The notes below the pieces were generated by a model. It searched no databases, was not told the DNA's origin, and worked only from the letters and a program-made list of their open reading frames with translations. DNA of 64,000 nt, taken from NCBI GenBank assembly GCA_014193115.1, contig BJHQ01000007.1:159729-223728 (forward strand), given 5' to 3'. The DNA is from Planctomycetota bacterium. GTDB taxonomy: Bacteria > Planctomycetota > UBA11346. The number at the start of each line of letters is the position of its first letter. Position 1 is the first letter of the stretch. The translations under genes and the position numbers were made by a program. Positions 22,201 through 59,562 of the stretch are shown piece by piece.

Positions 22201-22733
22201 CCGCTGGCCGCTTGGGCGGCGCCCAGATCGGCGGTGGACAGGGCCTTTTCGATGTCGAGCAGGACCACCACTTTGCCGCCGACTTTGCCCATGCCGACGA
22301 TGCAGGCGGAATCGATCCCGGTGCCCATGGCCGGAGCCGGTTCAATGTCGGTGGCGGGGATGTTCTGGACCTCGTTCACCAGATCGACCACCGCCCCCAG
22401 GATCAAGGTCTGGCCGGCGGTTGCCGAGCTGGCCGTGGCCGTCATCTGGACCACGACGATGCACGACCGCTTGCCGTCGATCCCCCGGGGCAATCCGAGC
22501 TTGAGGCGGAGATCGATGACCGGGATGACCCGGCCACGCAGGTTGATCACCCCGCGCAGCCAGTCCGGCATGCGCGGCACCGGCGTGATGTCGAGCAGGC
22601 CGATGATCTCCTGGATCTTGAGGATCGGGATGGCGAAGCGCTCGGCCGCCAGGGTGAAGGCCAGGTATTTGTCGGCGGCGCTGCGGGTTGTGCGGGCGCG
22701 GACCGCGGCGGCGGTGTGGGCGAGCGGCGGCAT
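22197..22733 (-). CDS. cheW: Chemotaxis coupling protein
   Basis: YLAFTLAAERFAIPILKIQEIIG, MPDWLRGVINLRGRVIPVIDLRLKLGLP. Confidence 0.95.
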   Translation of the reverse strand: MPPLAHTAAAVRARTTRSAADKYLAFTLAAERFAIPILKIQEIIGLLDITPVPRMPDWLRGVINLRGRVIPVIDLRLKLGLPRGIDGKRSCIVVVQMTATASSATAGQTLILGAVVDLVNEVQNIPATDIEPAPAMGTGIDSACIVGMGKVGGKVVVLLDIEKALSTADLGAAQAASG

Positions 22734-22736
22734 GGT

Positions 22737-24494
22737 TCAGAATTTCGAGAAATCGCCCTGCTGATCCGCCGATTCCTCGGCAGTCAGGGGAATGATCTGG
22801 GACGGCTTGCGTGGGGCAGCGCTCTGGGATGGGCGGGGCGGCGGGGCGGCACGCTGGGTAGCAGGTGGGACCTGGCGCAGCGACTGCGTGGAGCGCTGAG
22901 ACGGCGGCGGGGCCGGTCGTTGGGTGCTGGCTGTCGGCCTGGGCGGGGCGGCGGCGGGTATCGCCGTTGCGGCTTCGGATCCACGGACCTGGGTGCCTTC
23001 GACCACCACCCGCACCTGATCGACCGAACGCTGCAGTTCGGCTGACTGGGCCATCAGTTCCTCGCTGGCGGCCGCGCTCTGCTCGGCGCTGGCGGCATTT
23101 TCCTGAGTGACTTTGTCGATCTGCGAAACCGCTGCGTTGATCTGCTCGACTCCGCGGGCCTGCTCGTCGCTGGCTTCGGCAACCTCGGCCGACAACTGGC
23201 TGACCTTTTTCGCGGCAACCACCAATTTCTGGAAGGACTCAACCATCTCGCGGTCGAGGGTCCGGGCGACAGACTCCTGGACCTGGCGCGACGAGGCCAG
23301 GACCCGTTCCGAGTTGGCCTTGGCCTCTTTCATCAGGGCGGCGGTGTTGCGAGCCTCGTCGGTGCTGCGCGCCGCCAGGTTGCGGACTTCGTCAGCCACA
23401 ACAGCGAAACCCATGCCTGCCTCACCAGCCCGGGCCGCCTCGACCGCAGCGTTCAGGGCCAGCAGATTGGTCTGAAAGGCGATCTCATCGATGGTCTCGA
23501 CCACCGCCGTGGTCTTGTCGGTGCTGGCGCGGATGGCCTCGACCGCGGTCATCAGGTCGGCCAATTGCCGAGCCATGTCCTGGGCGGCCCGGCGGGCTGC
23601 GTGTTCGCCGAGTTCGCTGGCGCCGGCCGCCTCGCCGGCCAGGGTCTTGGCCTGGCGAGCGTTCTCGGCGTTCTGCCGGCAGGTGGCCGACAGTTCTTCC
23701 AACGATGAAGTCGTTTCTTCCAGGCTCGCGGCCTGCTCGCTAGCGCCGGCAGCGATGCGCTGGGCGCTTTCCGAAACCTGATTGGCGGCTGAGCTGACCT
23801 GGTCGGCTCCATTGGTCAGGTCGGCCATGCCGCGGCTGACCGGGATGGTGATCGACCGGGCGAGCAGCCAGGACCCGCCCAGGACCAGCACCGCCGCGCC
23901 CAGGCTGAAAAATTCCAGCAGACGTTGGCCGAAGACATCCTGCTCGGCGATGAGTTTTTCGCGATCTTTCAGGCGCTGGTTGAGCGCCTGGACGATGACG
24001 TCGATGTGGGCTCGATGCGCATCATAGATCGGCTTGATCTCGCCGATCAGAATCGCCCCAGCGGCATTGGCGTCCATCCCGCCTTCGACTCCAGGGATCA
24101 GCTTGTCTCGGATCAGGGCCAGGATCTGCGCGCCTGTGTCTTTGGCTTGTTTGGCCTCGCCACGGATCTGGCCGGCATAGGCGTGGTGGCCCAACCACAC
24201 GTCCCAGCGATCGGTGAATTCCTTTTCAAGCTTTTTAAAGTGCTCTTTATACTGCTGGCGTTGGTCCGGCTTGCTGTCCGGATACAGATGGCCGATCAGG
24301 TAGGCCTCGACGACAAAGGCCGGCGATGGATGGACATCGGCCAGGAAGATATTGTCATCCATGACCTCGACGAAGGTCGGACTGTTGATCTTGGAATGGT
24401 CATAGATCAACCAACCTGTCGCTGCCACAGTGAGGACGCAGATAGTGGAGAAGATCGCCAGGATGGCGAGGCGGCCGCGGATGCCCATGGTCAT
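22737..24494 (-). CDS. Methyl-accepting chemotaxis protein
   Basis: Two TM segments; signalling hairpin [43 protein letters not shown]; Pro-rich C-terminal tail. Confidence 0.95.
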
Positions 24495-24539
24495 GGTGAT
24501 TCCTTTGGTGCTTTCAGTTGGTCGGAAAACGACAGTAGA

Positions 24540-25577
24540 TCAGGTGGGAGCGAGAGGTTGGACGATGGTAGATGCAGCGCGATGTAGAATCGGCAGCAAG
24601 ACAGCCCGGGCGGCTGAAAGTCCCTGATGAATTGCCAGGGATTCCTTGTCGATCACCGCCACCGCTCCGGCCGCCAGCAGTTTCCCTTCCAGGTCGCTGC
24701 CGGTCTTGGCCACCGTGGACACGATGACTGTGGGAATCGGCTTGAATTGCATGATCTTGCGCAAAAAAGCGAGACCGTCGAGACGCGGCATGATGACATC
24801 CAGGCAGAGTACATCGGGATCCTCGGCCAGGATCTGCTCACGGGCCTGGAAGGCGTCTTCGGCCTCACCGACCACCTCAAGTCGGGGATCTCCGGCGATG
24901 GCCGCAACCAGCACCCGCCGGACCGTGGCCGAATCGTCCACCACTAGGACGCGGATCTTGCGGCGGGCCAGATCATCGCGTCGTTGGCTGGCCGCCGACG
25001 CTTCGATCAGGGAACAGCGGATCGCGCCGTTGCCGGTATCGAAGTCGAGCTTGCGGCCGCGGCTGCCGCCGGTGTCCTCGCCAGCCACCTGGATTTTTGC
25101 GGCCTCTAAACTGACATAAGCCTGTTCGATGTTGCGCTGGCCGATGTCCCCGGCCCCTGATCCCAAAGCCCCGACCACTGCGCCGCCACCATAGATCCGG
25201 GCCTTGCAGCGTGCCAGATCACTGCCGGCCAGCCGCGCCAGGTTGAGCAGTTGGGCGATGGCCTGGTCGCCGCATTTTCCCGGAGCCAGCCGGGTGCCGT
25301 TGGCGTTGGGGACCATGAAGTGGTTCAGCCCGCCCCACTTGCGCAACGGATCGAACACCGCCACCGCCACGCAGGAGCCGAGCAACGTCGAGAGCATCGA
25401 CGGCTCGCGGACGAAGGCCATTTCACCGGGCAGAAGAAAAGTCCGGCGCAGGTCGCCGTTGACTGGACTGGTCGAAGCAAGACTCGGCGGCCTGACGGCC
25501 GGGCTCGGGGGCCGGATGGCCAGACTCGGCGGCCTGACGGACGGGCTTGGCGGCGGTAGATGCTGCGGCGTGTCCAT
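24540..25577 (-). CDS. cheD: CheD glutamine deamidase fused to a CheB-type receiver domain
   Basis: CheD part: STLLGSCVAVAVFDPLRKWGGLNHFMVP...KARIYGGGAVVG; C-terminal receiver: IRVLVVDDSATVRRVLVAAIAGDPRLEVVGEAED...DVLCLDVIMPRLDGLAFLRKI, no methylesterase domain after it. Confidence 0.92.
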   Translation of the reverse strand: MDTPQHLPPPSPSVRPPSLAIRPPSPAVRPPSLASTSPVNGDLRRTFLLPGEMAFVREPSMLSTLLGSCVAVAVFDPLRKWGGLNHFMVPNANGTRLAPGKCGDQAIAQLLNLARLAGSDLARCKARIYGGGAVVGALGSGAGDIGQRNIEQAYVSLEAAKIQVAGEDTGGSRGRKLDFDTGNGAIRCSLIEASAASQRRDDLARRKIRVLVVDDSATVRRVLVAAIAGDPRLEVVGEAEDAFQAREQILAEDPDVLCLDVIMPRLDGLAFLRKIMQFKPIPTVIVSTVAKTGSDLEGKLLAAGAVAVIDKESLAIHQGLSAARAVLLPILHRAASTIVQPLAPT

Positions 25578-25582
25578 GGAAT

Positions 25583-27700
25583 TCAGGCCGCCACTTCGTT
25601 TTGGAACAGGTCGACATCCAGGACCAGGGCCAGGCTGCCATCGCCGAGCAGGGCCGAGCCGGTGATCAGCTCAGCCCCGGAAGGCAGGCCGGCCATCGGC
25701 CGCAGGACAACCTTTTGCACACCCAACACGCCATCGACCACCAGCGCCAGTTTTCGGCGGTTGGCCGACACCGCCACCAGCACCTGGCTGCGCTGGTCCC
25801 AATCGTGGCCTTGGCGATTCAGGACTTCGATCCCGGACAGCACCGGCATGAGGTCACCGCGCCGCTGGATGCAGCGCCCGCGACCGACCACGCGCTGCAA
25901 ATCCCCTGGAATGGCCTTGAAGGTCTCGAGCACCCGTTCGAGGGGGATGGCGAAAATCCGGTTGCCGATCTTGACCAGATACCCGGGCATGATCTGGGTC
26001 GTGACGCTCTTGGGGATGCGGATGGTGATCGTGGTGCCCTGACCGGCGACCGTGGCCACCTGGATTCCACCGCCGGATTCGTCGATGGCCCGGCGGACCA
26101 CGTCCATGCCCACGCCGCGGCCGCTGATCTCGGTGACCTCTTTGGCCGTGGACACCCCCGGAGCAAAGATGAAATCGACGATGTCCTGCTCGGACATGGC
26201 GATACCGGGTTGGGCGATGCCGAGGCTTTCGGCCTTGTTGCGGATGGCTGCCAGGTCGATGCCCTTGCCATCGTCGGCGATGGTGATGGTGACCATGCGG
26301 TCGGTGGTGGCGGCGCTGATCCGCACCAGACCCTGGGCCGGTTTTCCAGCGGCCTCGCGGGCGACCGGGGCTTCGATGCCATGATCGGCGGCATTGCGGG
26401 CGATGTGGGTCAGGGGTGCGTCCAGCAGTTCGATCAGGCTCTTATCCACCACCAGATCCTCGCCTTCGAGCACCACCAGGATGTCTTTGCCCCGGAACTG
26501 GGCGACATCCCGGACCAGCCGCGGAACCTTGTTCAACAGCGGCCGGATCGGCACCTGGCGCAGGGCCATGATCCCCCGTTGCAGGCGGTTGGACACGGTG
26601 GCGAAGGTTTCATTGGCTCGGCGCAGGCTTTTCGCCATGGGCCGGGTGTCGGGGTCGGCGGCTAAGCGTTTGTGCAGGTGGGCGTACATGTCGCCCACCA
26701 CCAACAGTTCGCCGACTTGATCGAGGAAAGCATCGACGGTGGCCTCGGCCACCCGCATGCTCTTAGGGCCGGACTCGGTTTTAGCCTCGCGGCTGGTCGC
26801 TTCGCTGCGCGGCCTGCTGCCTTCGCTACGCGGGCTGGTGTCTTCGCTGCGCGGGCGGCGATTGGTGCTCGTGAGCGCTGAAACCGCCGACACCACAGCG
26901 GTTTCCTGCTTCAATTTGGGGATACGCTCACGCAGGTAGCTGATGAGCAGCGAATCGAATCCAACAGTCGGGTGGAATGCGTTGAATCCCTCGATCATTT
27001 CAGCAACGATTACGGCATCATCGGGCGATGCATGGGACTTGAGGTCAGCAAGAATCCTGGCGACCTCCGTACCGGCACCATCGTCGACCCGCCCGGCAGC
27101 CACCGCATCGATGACCGCGGTGAGTCGGCCAAGAGGACCTATTTCAGCCAACGGGTCGCCATGGGATTTTTGCCCACCGCTGGCAATCAGGGCCTGGCGG
27201 ATCCGGGCCAGGGCCGCCTTGGCGTCGTCGGGCAGGTGTGCCGAGTTGGCCTCCACCAGGACCAGATCGGCAAGCACACTGCTGCTACCGGCAGTTTGGG
27301 TGGGAAGGTCGCGTAAACGGGTCAGCAAGAGGTCGAAGCCTGCCTGATCGGGCGGATCGATGGCTCCGGATTTGAGGCCGGCGACCAGGACTCTCAGGAC
27401 ATCGAGCCCTTCGAGCAGGGCATCGGTGACCTGGCGGGAGGCCGGCATGTGGCCCTTGCGCACCTGATCGAGCACATTTTCCAGATCATGGGCGAGGTTC
27501 TTGACCGCCATGAAGCCGAAGAAAGCGGCATTACCCTTCAGGCTGTGGACTGCCCGGAAGATCGCATTGACCGGTTCGAGGTCGCCGGGGCGGGCCTCCA
27601 TCTCGACAAATCGGCGGTCGAGTCCGTCGAGGGATTCCTTGGCCTCGTCCAAGAATCCAGCGAGCAGTTCGGGATCGGCGCTGAGGTCGAAGGCGCTCAT
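25583..27700 (-). CDS. cheA: Chemotaxis histidine kinase
   Basis: Hpt motif AVHSLKGNAAFFGF; ATP-binding HIARNAADHGIE, FIFAPGVSTAKEVTEISGRGVGMDVV; CheW-like C-terminus. Confidence 0.96.
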   Translation of the reverse strand: MSAFDLSADPELLAGFLDEAKESLDGLDRRFVEMEARPGDLEPVNAIFRAVHSLKGNAAFFGFMAVKNLAHDLENVLDQVRKGHMPASRQVTDALLEGLDVLRVLVAGLKSGAIDPPDQAGFDLLLTRLRDLPTQTAGSSSVLADLVLVEANSAHLPDDAKAALARIRQALIASGGQKSHGDPLAEIGPLGRLTAVIDAVAAGRVDDGAGTEVARILADLKSHASPDDAVIVAEMIEGFNAFHPTVGFDSLLISYLRERIPKLKQETAVVSAVSALTSTNRRPRSEDTSPRSEGSRPRSEATSREAKTESGPKSMRVAEATVDAFLDQVGELLVVGDMYAHLHKRLAADPDTRPMAKSLRRANETFATVSNRLQRGIMALRQVPIRPLLNKVPRLVRDVAQFRGKDILVVLEGEDLVVDKSLIELLDAPLTHIARNAADHGIEAPVAREAAGKPAQGLVRISAATTDRMVTITIADDGKGIDLAAIRNKAESLGIAQPGIAMSEQDIVDFIFAPGVSTAKEVTEISGRGVGMDVVRRAIDESGGGIQVATVAGQGTTITIRIPKSVTTQIMPGYLVKIGNRIFAIPLERVLETFKAIPGDLQRVVGRGRCIQRRGDLMPVLSGIEVLNRQGHDWDQRSQVLVAVSANRRKLALVVDGVLGVQKVVLRPMAGLPSGAELITGSALLGDGSLALVLDVDLFQNEVAA

Positions 27701-56455: not shown

Positions 56456-57391
56456 GTGGAGACCGAGATCGAGCGCCTGCGCAAAAAGGTCGAGAACTTC
56501 CCCTCGGCTTCCAGCTACAACCGGCTCGCGGAGCTGGCTCGGATGGCTGGCGACCATGCCGAAGCCGAGCGTGCCTGCCGGCGTTGCATCAAGGAATTCC
56601 CGCGCAACGGCCAGGCCTATCTGATCCTGGCGGAAATGGCCTTGGCCGGCAGCAAGCGCGACGAGGCGGTCCAGCTGGTCGGCACCGCCATCGAAAAAGA
56701 CCCGCGCAGCTACACCGCCCACAAGATGATGGCGGATTTCCTGATCCAGGATGGCAACCTGCCCCAGGCCCTGGCCCACCTGCGCCAAATTCTGACCTTC
56801 AAACCGGGCGATCCGGTCATTACCCAACGGGTGGCGGAACTCGATAAGAACGCGCCTCCCGGCCAACCCAAGACGCAAACCATCACCAAGCCGGCTGGCA
56901 CCGGTCCGGCGAAACCATCCGCCCCCGGCCCAGCGCCAGCCAGCGGAAACAGCCCGCCGCAAGCGGCTCCGACCCCGGCCCCCGGTTCCGGGTCCCGCCC
57001 TGCGGTGTCGCCCATTGTCGGCGCCGTTCCGGTGATCAAACGCCCGCCCCGCGGCCCGGTCCTGGATCCCCTGTGCGCCGAAGCTGGAGTGGTCGGTGCC
57101 TTGGTGGCAGACGCCAGCGGGCGGGCGGTTTTGGCCAAGAATCTCAAGCCGGAGCAAGAGGAAATCCTGGCGGCGCTAGCCGCTGAGCTGGGCAAAGCCG
57201 GCCAGTCGGCCCTGGCCGCCATCGGCCAGTCCAAGACGGCGACAGTGGTCTTGTCCGCGGCCAACGGCCAGGTCCTGCGTTTCGCCCGCGACCAAGGCAT
57301 GGCGGTGGTCATCTTGGCCAATCCCGGTATCCGTCCGGCCATGCTCGAACTTCGCGCCCGCCAGGCGCTCATCGACCTGGGAGCCGGCTAA
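56456..57391 (+). CDS. TPR - Roadblock/LC7-like protein
   Basis: TPR helices (YNRLAELARMAGDHAEAERACRRCIKEFPRNGQAYLILAEMAL), Pro/Ala linker, then GVVGALVADASGRAVLAKNL... Roadblock-like domain. Confidence 0.72.
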   Translation: METEIERLRKKVENFPSASSYNRLAELARMAGDHAEAERACRRCIKEFPRNGQAYLILAEMALAGSKRDEAVQLVGTAIEKDPRSYTAHKMMADFLIQDGNLPQALAHLRQILTFKPGDPVITQRVAELDKNAPPGQPKTQTITKPAGTGPAKPSAPGPAPASGNSPPQAAPTPAPGSGSRPAVSPIVGAVPVIKRPPRGPVLDPLCAEAGVVGALVADASGRAVLAKNLKPEQEEILAALAAELGKAGQSALAAIGQSKTATVVLSAANGQVLRFARDQGMAVVILANPGIRPAMLELRARQALIDLGAG

Positions 57392-57739
57392 ATGGATGAA
57401 ATCCTGGTCCAGCTCAACCGCGTCCGCGGAGTCGGAGGCTCGCTGCTCTGCTCCGCCGATGGCCTGCCGATCGCCACCGCCTTGCGCGAAGGAGCGGATG
57501 AATCCCGGCTCGCCGCCGCGGTGGCGTCGTTGGTCGAATCCGCCAGCCGGATGGCCAGCATGCTCCAGCTCGGATCCGTCGCGAGCACCGCCGCCACCAG
57601 CGACACCGGCAGCATCCTGCTGCTCGCCGCCGGCAACGCCTATCTGGTCATCGTAGCCGATCCGGCAGCGAATCTCGCCCTGCTCCAACTCGAGGCCAAA
57701 CCATTTGTCGAGCGGATCGCCCAGCGGCTGTCGCTCTGA
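57392..57739 (+). CDS. Roadblock/LC7 (MglB-like) protein
   Basis: MDEILVQLNRVRGVGGSLLCSADGLPIATAL...GSILLLAAGNAYLVIVADPAANLALL; ATG abuts the previous TAA. Confidence 0.82.
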   Translation: MDEILVQLNRVRGVGGSLLCSADGLPIATALREGADESRLAAAVASLVESASRMASMLQLGSVASTAATSDTGSILLLAAGNAYLVIVADPAANLALLQLEAKPFVERIAQRLSL

Positions 57740-57769: not shown

Positions 57770-59035
57770 ATGGTCCAGATCAATTTCGGACAGCGCGAAG
57801 TGAGCTGCAAGGTGGTTTTCTATGGCCCGGGCATGTCGGGCAAGACGACCAACCTGGAAATCATCCATAAGAAGGCTCCAAAGGACGCGGTCGGCGAAAT
57901 GGTCTCCATCGCGACCGAGACCGATCGCACCCTGTACTTCGATTTCCTGCCCTTGGACCTCGGCCAGGTCGCCGGCATGCGGACCAAGTTCCAGCTCTAT
58001 ACCGTGCCCGGGCAAATCTATTACAACGCCACCCGCAAACTGGTGCTGCAAGGCGTCGATGGGGTGATCTTCGTCGCCGACAGCAATCCTGACAAGATGG
58101 CCGAAAATCTGGAATCGCTCCAGAACCTGCGCGATAACCTTGCTGAGATGAACCTGAAGCTGGATGACCTGCCGCTGGTCCTGCAATACAACAAGCGCGA
58201 TCTGCCGAATGCGCTGTCCGTCGAAGACATGAACGCCCGGATGAACCCGATGGGGGTGCCGATCCACGAGGCTTGCGCCCGGGATGGGAAAGGCGTCTTC
58301 GCCACCTTGAAGGAAGTCAGCCGGCTGGTCATCGAAAAGCTGAACAAGGATCACGCCCCGCCGGTCAATCGCCGCCGTACCGGCGGCAACCTGACCCCCC
58401 AGCGCACCCCGGTGGTCAGTCCCCAGGCGGCCCATGCCCCGACCCCCGGCCCGCTGCAGGCAGCCGCCCCAGCGCCGGCCGCCCCGCCAGCACGGCCTGC
58501 GGCGGCGCCAGCTCCGGCCTGGACCCCGCCAAAGGCACCTGCGCCGGCTCCCGCGCTTCGGCCAGCTGCGCCGGCTCCGGCAGACGAGATGTCGGCACGC
58601 GACAAGCATCTCGCCAAGGCCAAGCCGCAGCCGCTGGCAGCCGCCGCGAAATCGCCGGCCACCGCCGCCACCGAAGGCGCGATGACCGAGCCGAACCTGA
58701 AGAAGTATAAACAGCAAACTCAGGGTGGCGGACCGTTCCAGAAATTCCTGTTGCTCGCCCTGCTCATCGTTTCGCTGCTGGTGGTCGCACTGTTGCTGGT
58801 CCTGTTCGTCCAGCCGGTCCGAGCCCTGCTGCCGCTGAGCGTCCAACAGATGCTGACTGGACCGGCACCGCAGGCGCCGATTCCGGTCCAACCGCCGGCG
58901 AAGGCCGAGCCAGCGCCACCGGCAGGCAAAGCGCCGGAGGCTGCTCCGGCTGAGGCCAAGCCCAAGCCGGAAGAGCCGAAGGCGGGGCAGCCAGCCGAAG
59001 CCGCTAAACCCGCTCCCCCTGCCGAAGGCCACTGA
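57770..59035 (+). CDS. MglA-like small GTPase with C-terminal Pro/Ala linker and transmembrane tail
   Basis: CKVVFYGPGMSGKTTNLEIIHKK, TLYFDFLPLDLG, FQLYTVPGQIYYNATRKLVLQGVDGVIFVADS, LQYNKRDLPN; TM segment FLLLALLIVSLLVVALLLVLFV (about 58740-58810). Confidence 0.93.
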   Translation: MVQINFGQREVSCKVVFYGPGMSGKTTNLEIIHKKAPKDAVGEMVSIATETDRTLYFDFLPLDLGQVAGMRTKFQLYTVPGQIYYNATRKLVLQGVDGVIFVADSNPDKMAENLESLQNLRDNLAEMNLKLDDLPLVLQYNKRDLPNALSVEDMNARMNPMGVPIHEACARDGKGVFATLKEVSRLVIEKLNKDHAPPVNRRRTGGNLTPQRTPVVSPQAAHAPTPGPLQAAAPAPAAPPARPAAAPAPAWTPPKAPAPAPALRPAAPAPADEMSARDKHLAKAKPQPLAAAAKSPATAATEGAMTEPNLKKYKQQTQGGGPFQKFLLLALLIVSLLVVALLLVLFVQPVRALLPLSVQQMLTGPAPQAPIPVQPPAKAEPAPPAGKAPEAAPAEAKPKPEEPKAGQPAEAAKPAPPAEGH

Positions 59036-59037
59036 AC

Positions 59038-59562
59038 ATGGTCAGCGACAATGAGGCCCTGCGCCTGCGCCGGTTGGTCTTCTACGCGAAGGATATCGAC
59101 CAGATCAATGCCGCGTTGCTCGCCTTCGTGAAGAAATCGAATGCGCAGAGCGTGGTGGTGATCGACCAGGAAGGCCACATGGTCGCCCGCCAGGGCTTCC
59201 GCCAGGCGGGCAGTGACCCGTCGACCTTGGCGGCGCTGGTCGCAGGCAGTTTCGCCAGCACCCGGCAGGTGGCGAAGCAGCTCGGTGAATCCGATTTCCG
59301 CGTGATGTCCCATCAGGGTCCGCAGCAGTCCATCCACATCACCCTGCTCGGCACGCGCACGCTCCAGGTTGCGGTATTCAGCAGCCAAATCAAACCCGGC
59401 ATGATCCAGGTGCTGTGCGGAGAACTGGCCAAGCAGCTCGAAGCCCTGCTCGATTCCGCGGCGAACCGCGCCCCGTCGGTCGATGATCCATCGACCAAGC
59501 TCGGCGACAAGTTCACCTCCGAGATGAAGAATCAGCTCGACAATCTGTTCGGGGACCTCTGA
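59038..59562 (+). CDS. Roadblock/LC7-like protein
   Basis: DIDQINAALLAFVKKSNAQSVVVIDQEGHMVARQG...SIHITLLGTRTLQVAVFSSQIKPGMIQVLC; 2 nt after the GTPase stop. Confidence 0.75.
   Translation: MVSDNEALRLRRLVFYAKDIDQINAALLAFVKKSNAQSVVVIDQEGHMVARQGFRQAGSDPSTLAALVAGSFASTRQVAKQLGESDFRVMSHQGPQQSIHITLLGTRTLQVAVFSSQIKPGMIQVLCGELAKQLEALLDSAANRAPSVDDPSTKLGDKFTSEMKNQLDNLFGDL

Follow-up and report, generated by a model that had tools for sequence, protein, structure and literature searches.

A leash-bearing MglA-type GTPase of Planctomycetota with a predicted membrane anchor

We analysed a 64,000-nucleotide stretch of a Planctomycetota genome (contig BJHQ01000007.1; hereafter the window) in which one gene, mglA-TM, encodes an MglA-type GTPase that appears to be tethered to the membrane by a long flexible leash and a single transmembrane (TM) helix. 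Judged from sequence, tethered MglA is real and phylum-wide in the Planctomycetota, and we regard the tethering of the window protein itself as nearly certain. Our best overall explanation, to which we assign a probability of roughly 0.7, is a membrane-tethered MglA switch that would be regulated by Roadblock proteins and would exert an envelope output through TPR and PATAN partners.

The GTPase domain

mglA-TM is an ATG-start open reading frame of 421 codons at positions 57770..59035 (+ strand) with whole-protein matches to MglA structures. Its G domain, delimited by MglA homology and motifs, comprises aa 1-193 (57770..58348, +) and contains the P-loop GPGMSGKTTN (aa 19-28), the G2 motif DRT (aa 52-54), the G3 motif TVPGQ (aa 78-82) and NKRD (aa 141-144). 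When the product was compared with the PDB, MglA of Thermus thermophilus (3t12) matched aa 2-193 with an E value of 1.7e-75 and MglA of Myxococcus xanthus (6h17) matched at 7.4e-72, both over the full domain. The best PDB matches of the fold predicted by AlphaFold2 were MglA throughout, in a model built from a 17-sequence alignment in which the G domain is only moderately confident. Among 12 relatives, the key residues of the P-loop, the G2 Arg, TVPGQ and NKRD are invariant or nearly so; both TVPGQ and R53, the intrinsic Arg finger beside the conserved Thr of G2, are invariant in the aligned relatives. The initial annotation had described an MglA core followed by ~220 extra residues, to be set against a canonical MglA of ~195. 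These figures agree well with the 228 residues that we measured beyond the region of homology and with the Myxococcota orthologues, which are 195-196 residues long and have no tail.

Group 1 MglA proteins are characterized by an Arg next to the G2 Thr, TVPGQ in G3 (GTPGQ in Groups 2-5) and a coupled MglB homologue (PMC4316618). The window protein has the G2 Arg, TVPGQ and an adjoining MglB homologue (59038-59562), and by the published sequence criteria (Arg in G2, TVPGQ in G3; PMC4316618) it belongs to Group 1 and its active site is intact, although its length falls outside the 150-240 aa of single-domain Group 1 proteins. The 240-aa limit is a filter and not a biological criterion. Since proteins of >240 aa were excluded from the 2014 census of prokaryotic Ras-like GTPases by Wuichet and Sogaard-Andersen, the main text of which makes no mention of Planctomycetes (PMC4316618), the long-tailed MglA class was probably missed there.

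The tail

The Pro/Ala linker, hydrophobic helix and second Pro/Ala/Glu/Lys segment of the initial annotation were all recovered by composition, hydropathy and AlphaFold2. The flexible linker (aa 194-325, about 130 aa; 58349..58744, +) contains 34 A and 28 P in 126 residues, carries a basic RRRT patch (aa 201-204) near its start and has, over most of its length, low pLDDT and no secondary structure. An alignment of 15 family members showed the linker to be variable overall, with conserved islands of consensus (K/R)HLxKxKPPxL and, before the TM helix, GxTDPxLKRYQ; in the window protein these read KHLAKAKP (aa 279-286; 58604..58627, +) and TEPNLKKYK (aa 306-314; 58685..58711, +), the latter overlapping a predicted helix at aa 308-316. 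The TM helix FLLLALLIVSLLVVALLLVLF spans aa 326-346 (58745..58807, +). Its hydropathy peak is 3.47 (Kyte-Doolittle, 19-residue window), against a maximum of 2.67 when the tail was shuffled 20,000 times, and AlphaFold2 placed a single tail helix at aa 322-346 (pLDDT 83-91), the rest of the tail being of low confidence. Beyond the membrane lie 75 residues rich in P/A/E/K/Q (aa 347-421; 58808..59032, +), predicted to be periplasmic, in which a third conserved island, FVxxVRxLLPxxxQ, directly follows the helix and gives way to a variable P/A/E/K-rich stretch.

From hydropathy, flank charge and the AlphaFold model we infer that the G domain lies in the cytosol and the C-terminus in the periplasm; the net charge is +3 on the N side of the helix and +1 on the C side, a modest difference. 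In strictly tail-anchored proteins the TM is no more than about 30 residues away from the C-terminus, and there is no N-terminal signal. With 75 residues after its helix, the window protein is thus predicted to be single-pass N-in and not strictly tail-anchored.

Two other identities for the tail were considered and rejected. A Pfam search of the window protein gave no family match outside the G domain, which discards a known second Pfam domain, and a PEP-CTERM-like sorting signal is incompatible with a protein that starts with a cytosolic GTPase domain and has no preceding signal peptide.

In this high-GC DNA long spurious frames stay open (a 618-aa antisense ORF overlaps mglA-TM), and the tail could on that account be taken for a product of frameshift, misassembly or chance, or for a stretch that is not translated. 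We give this reading practically no credence. At least 15 family members keep the TM helix and its motifs, and 67 of 71 proteins sampled across the phylum keep the helix; the remaining five reading frames across the tail reach a hydropathy peak of at most 1.6; the GC content of the TM segment by codon position is 0.68/0.12/0.88, and the segments of the tail differ as expected of a real reading frame; and the MglB-like gene begins 3 bases past the mglA-TM stop codon. On conservation, hydropathy and codon composition we reject an origin of the tail by frameshift, fusion or chance frame.

Conservation in the family and the phylum

A search of homologues for the same tail, proposed in the initial annotation, found it in relatives, and the tail-less close homologues with signs of a frameshift or fusion artefact that would have spoken against it did not turn up. 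A TM helix and 30-122 following residues are present in 15/15 complete full-tail proteins of the window protein's family, itself counted, a figure that leaves out several members running off contig ends and two that stop early. These two, L013 (220 aa) and L018 (328 aa), end before the TM and have no anchor; they lie on MAG contigs, with no frameshift demonstrated.

Planctomycetota dominate overwhelmingly among the closest named relatives, the named planctomycete hits being without exception MAGs or records of uncultured organisms, and 117 of 250 sampled Planctomycetota genomes contain a match at E 1e-50 or better. From this sample we fetched 73 new proteins, 71 of them complete. A C-terminal TM was found in 67 of the 71, with a hydropathy peak of at least 1.9 in 65 and of 1.5-1.9 in two. 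Outside the window family the linker measures 84-301 residues, and the helix that follows it is separated from the C-terminus by a median of 5 residues; most of the other Planctomycetota orthologues are tail-anchored in the strict sense. In 60 of 66 TM tails the N flank is at least as positively charged as the C flank, which fits an N-in topology. Among the four proteins scored as TM-less, L201 is itself frameshifted and its TM sits in another frame; the other three (L217, L219 and L221) come from one 9.5 Mb genome, and the C-terminus of L217 is a basic amphipathic tip.

That genome (G074, one 9.5 Mb contig) yielded 22 MglA candidates at first look and encodes at least four MglA-type proteins (L217, L219, L220 and L221) whose tails differ, with a TM in one and basic tips in others; operon-type MglAs without a TM are among its proteins. 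As amphipathic tips occur in some members, we reject the TM as a strict marker of Planctomycetota. The quick tree (193 columns) is too weakly supported to speak for or against a single phylum-wide origin of the tail; it implies at least 6 state changes.

The source genome contains a second MglA-like protein, of 1136 aa and 41% identity (L051:2731-6138; G000:C1, about 363,700-367,100). Its MglA domain is followed by a CxxC pair resembling a zinc ribbon and by a degenerate protein-kinase domain; a TM helix comes next, and the C-terminal part beyond it is long. The kinase domain matches Pfam Pkinase at 4.7e-12, beginning with position 55 of the profile, has HGW at the expected HRD and is probably a pseudokinase. 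Open frames of 1,000-1,470 aa at matching MglA hits in related genomes suggest that proteins of this type are widespread.

Amphipathic tips as an alternative anchor

Zixibacteria orthologues retain the operon and the long leash but have no TM, and the same holds for one record that bears the label Ignavibacterium. Instead, the last residues of 10 of 11 Zixibacteria-type tails form a basic amphipathic tip, for example KKKRGFFKRLFGIK. A MinD-like tip (GFFKRLFG) closes the long disordered MglA tail at loci L070, L094, L100, L103, L105, L110, L111, L113, L121 and L122. The Zixibacteria-type tip is nearly identical to the tip EKKGFLKRLFGG of Escherichia coli MinD, whose end reads EEEKKGFLKRLFGG in the genome record, and thus resembles C-terminal membrane-targeting sequences of the MinD/FtsA type, whereas the window protein itself would be anchored by a TM helix. 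MinD is an ATPase unrelated to MglA, and its membrane binding depends on dimerisation. Its tip is an amphipathic membrane-binding helix that targets the protein to the membrane (PMC6803595).

A tip pattern, composed after the tip sequences had been viewed, was run on the 4,035 ORFs of the fetched loci and matched 14, of which 13 are tip-bearing MglAs, including three from Chitinispirillia/Chitinivibrionales; it matched none of 20,000 shuffled tails. Comparable basic amphipathic tips were seen in TM-less Planctomycetota, namely L036 (KSKGFVGFLKGLFGK) and L042 and L112 (LF(K/R)KFKKFLDEKNK). Fibrobacter orthologues have a long tail in which neither a TM nor a MinD-like tip was found; a leash thus need not come with an obvious anchor, which counts against tethering. 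In these Fibrobacter tails (L076, L079, L099 and other loci) a conserved end, DDEIELRPYVPKKK, recurs together with RMPTFGR motifs, with no recognisable membrane anchor. The tail of a Nitrospinota MglA (L092:6001-7224) seems to be folded and helical instead of a disordered leash; by eye, it recalls the N-domain of SurA-type chaperones.

The exchange of a TM helix for an amphipathic tip at the same leash position is the strongest argument for tethering as a selected property, and the interchangeable anchors suggest that membrane tethering has been under selection. The membrane-tethered MglA of the initial annotation is in this way well supported by sequence beyond the window, by a TM in nearly all Planctomycetota orthologues and by an amphipathic tip in most TM-less lineages.

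Operon and genome context

mglA-TM follows a 311-aa TPR-Roadblock protein gene (56456..57391, +; Pfam TPR and Robl_LC7) and a 115-aa Roadblock protein gene (57392..57739, +; Pfam Robl_LC7, 2e-14), both conserved neighbours, and precedes a gene for a 174-aa MglB-like Roadblock protein (59038..59562, +) that matches the M. xanthus MglB structure 6izw at 6.8e-19. The tip of this protein reads ...QLDNLFGDL, and it aligns with M. xanthus MglB through the C-terminal ...DNLF stretch, where MglB has its Ct-helix region. The C-terminal helix of MglB binds MglA and regulates nucleotide exchange (PMC6785124). With the exception of L142, the order TPR-Roadblock, Roadblock, MglA, MglB was found in nearly every Planctomycetota contig of sufficient length, and it is also found in Zixibacteria. 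The three Roadblock genes found in the source genome all lie inside this operon.

Downstream, a 1198-aa PATAN(DUF4388)-TPR-TM-PQQ-propeller protein is encoded at 59682..63278 (+), with its TM at 61077-61145. This gene is conserved in the phylum as the usual neighbour of the operon, either downstream or upstream. In Planctomycetota the PATAN partner is long, includes a PQQ domain and in most cases is also predicted to have a TM, whereas the Zixibacteria version has about 400 residues and neither feature.

No gene joins the operon to pili, and the PilB and PilT homologues are located elsewhere in the genome: five PilT-family proteins over the cut-off and three full-length PilB/GspE-like ATPases below the curated cut-off. 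Flagellin and chemotaxis genes are also present. The window has CheW-domain genes at 22233-25981 (-), upstream of the MglA operon by about 32 kb, with frames of 179 aa and 717 aa, the latter CheA-sized.

Discussion

We propose that a Group 1-type MglA, catalytically competent to judge by its motifs, would be tethered at all times to the cytoplasmic membrane, on its inner side. A flexible Pro/Ala leash, about 130 residues long, would connect the cytosolic G domain to the single TM helix that fixes it, and in the window family about 75 further residues would reach into the periplasm. Resident at the membrane, the leashed GTPase would sample partners close to it. Its nucleotide state would be set by the Roadblock proteins of the operon, a regulation that we consider very probable, with the adjoining MglB homologue probably acting as GAP and as the regulator that carries the helix. 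The three Roadblock proteins bring to mind the GAP that MglB and RomY jointly form in M. xanthus (PMC9481161). GTP-bound MglA would then recruit or activate an envelope machine through TPR/PATAN partners, type IV pili being the best guess. We infer the GAP pairing and the output, as well as the effect on dynamics discussed below.

The PilT-family and PilB-like proteins of the genome make pili the leading candidate output. The Group 1 MglA of M. xanthus acts on T4aP by recruiting the TPR protein SgmX and, through it, PilB (PMC11580455). That the tethered switch acts on type IV pili or surface motility is nonetheless a tentative idea, to which we give slightly under even odds. The switch might instead run another process at the envelope, for instance secretion, assembly of the envelope or selection of the division site, and we take this for a possibility of some weight, though well short of even. 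The operon has no motility gene, membership of Group 1 does not by itself dictate the output, and the PilB/GspE-like ATPases, flagellins and chemotaxis genes leave pili as one among several candidates. Against it stand the T4aP as the target of M. xanthus Group 1 MglA via SgmX and PilB, and the PATAN and TPR proteins of the conserved neighbourhood, since such proteins are among the candidates considered with the Myxococcus T4aP regulator SopA (PMC11580455).

The TM could also serve mainly for transmembrane signalling, the periplasmic segment of 30-122 residues sensing or binding the cell wall or the neighbour's PQQ propeller and the G domain reporting it. The family-specific FVxxVRxLLPxxxQ motif and long C-terminal segment agree with such a role, as does the neighbouring PATAN-TPR protein, which likewise spans the membrane and has its PQQ propeller on the far side. 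However, elsewhere in the phylum the protein ends about 5 residues past the TM, the Zixibacteria tip does not cross the membrane, and the segment past the conserved stub is of low complexity and variable; we think this role unlikely and favor tethering as the main task of the helix.

A single-pass membrane protein may still diffuse laterally and gather at a pole. Anchoring would plausibly do away with the exchange between cytosol and pole that depends on the bound nucleotide, and a switch unable to leave the membrane would have to be controlled by a change of partner and lateral capture rather than by recruitment from the cytosol to the pole. Tethering may, as a hypothesis, alter polarity switching.

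With MglA/MglB of M. xanthus and T. thermophilus the system shares the full G domain, the P-loop, G2 Arg, TVPGQ and NKRD, and the adjacent MglB-like gene. It differs in the 228-residue tail with its TM helix, which the known, tail-less MglAs of about 195 residues lack, and in the two further Roadblock genes and the PATAN-TPR-TM-PQQ gene of the operon. Actinobacterial conservons (Cvn) also bring a GTPase and Roadblock proteins together at a membrane complex, but their GTPases belong to Group 2, with no G2 Arg and GTPGQ in G3, and the membrane-spanning partner is the kinase CvnA and not the GTPase (PMC4316618). Our search of the open-access literature returned no report of a membrane-anchored MglA or of MglA in Planctomycetota.

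Eukaryotic Ras and Rab consist of a small GTPase, a hypervariable flexible region and a lipid or polybasic anchor at the tip. The tethered MglAs share the succession of GTPase, variable leash and tip anchor, a resemblance of plan and not of descent; their anchor is a protein helix instead of a lipid, and their leash is much longer (84-301 residues). We see an even chance that a Ras-like plan evolved in bacteria for MglA, with an exchangeable tip anchor and a membrane-resident hub in place of a cytosolic pole-to-pole shuttle. The anchors would then be a TM in most Planctomycetota and MinD-like or polybasic tips in Zixibacteria, Chitinispirillia-type Fibrobacterota and some Planctomycetota, and the hub would be served by several Roadblock regulators and the membrane-spanning PATAN-TPR-PQQ partner.

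MglA is the main model for the bacterial use of Ras-like switches, and the model assumes a soluble GTPase that is drawn to the pole. A large bacterial group appears to hold MglA at the membrane by a leash with interchangeable anchors, in a plan that resembles how eukaryotic Ras is held, and these proteins are natural variants for asking which parts of MglA control need cytosolic diffusion.
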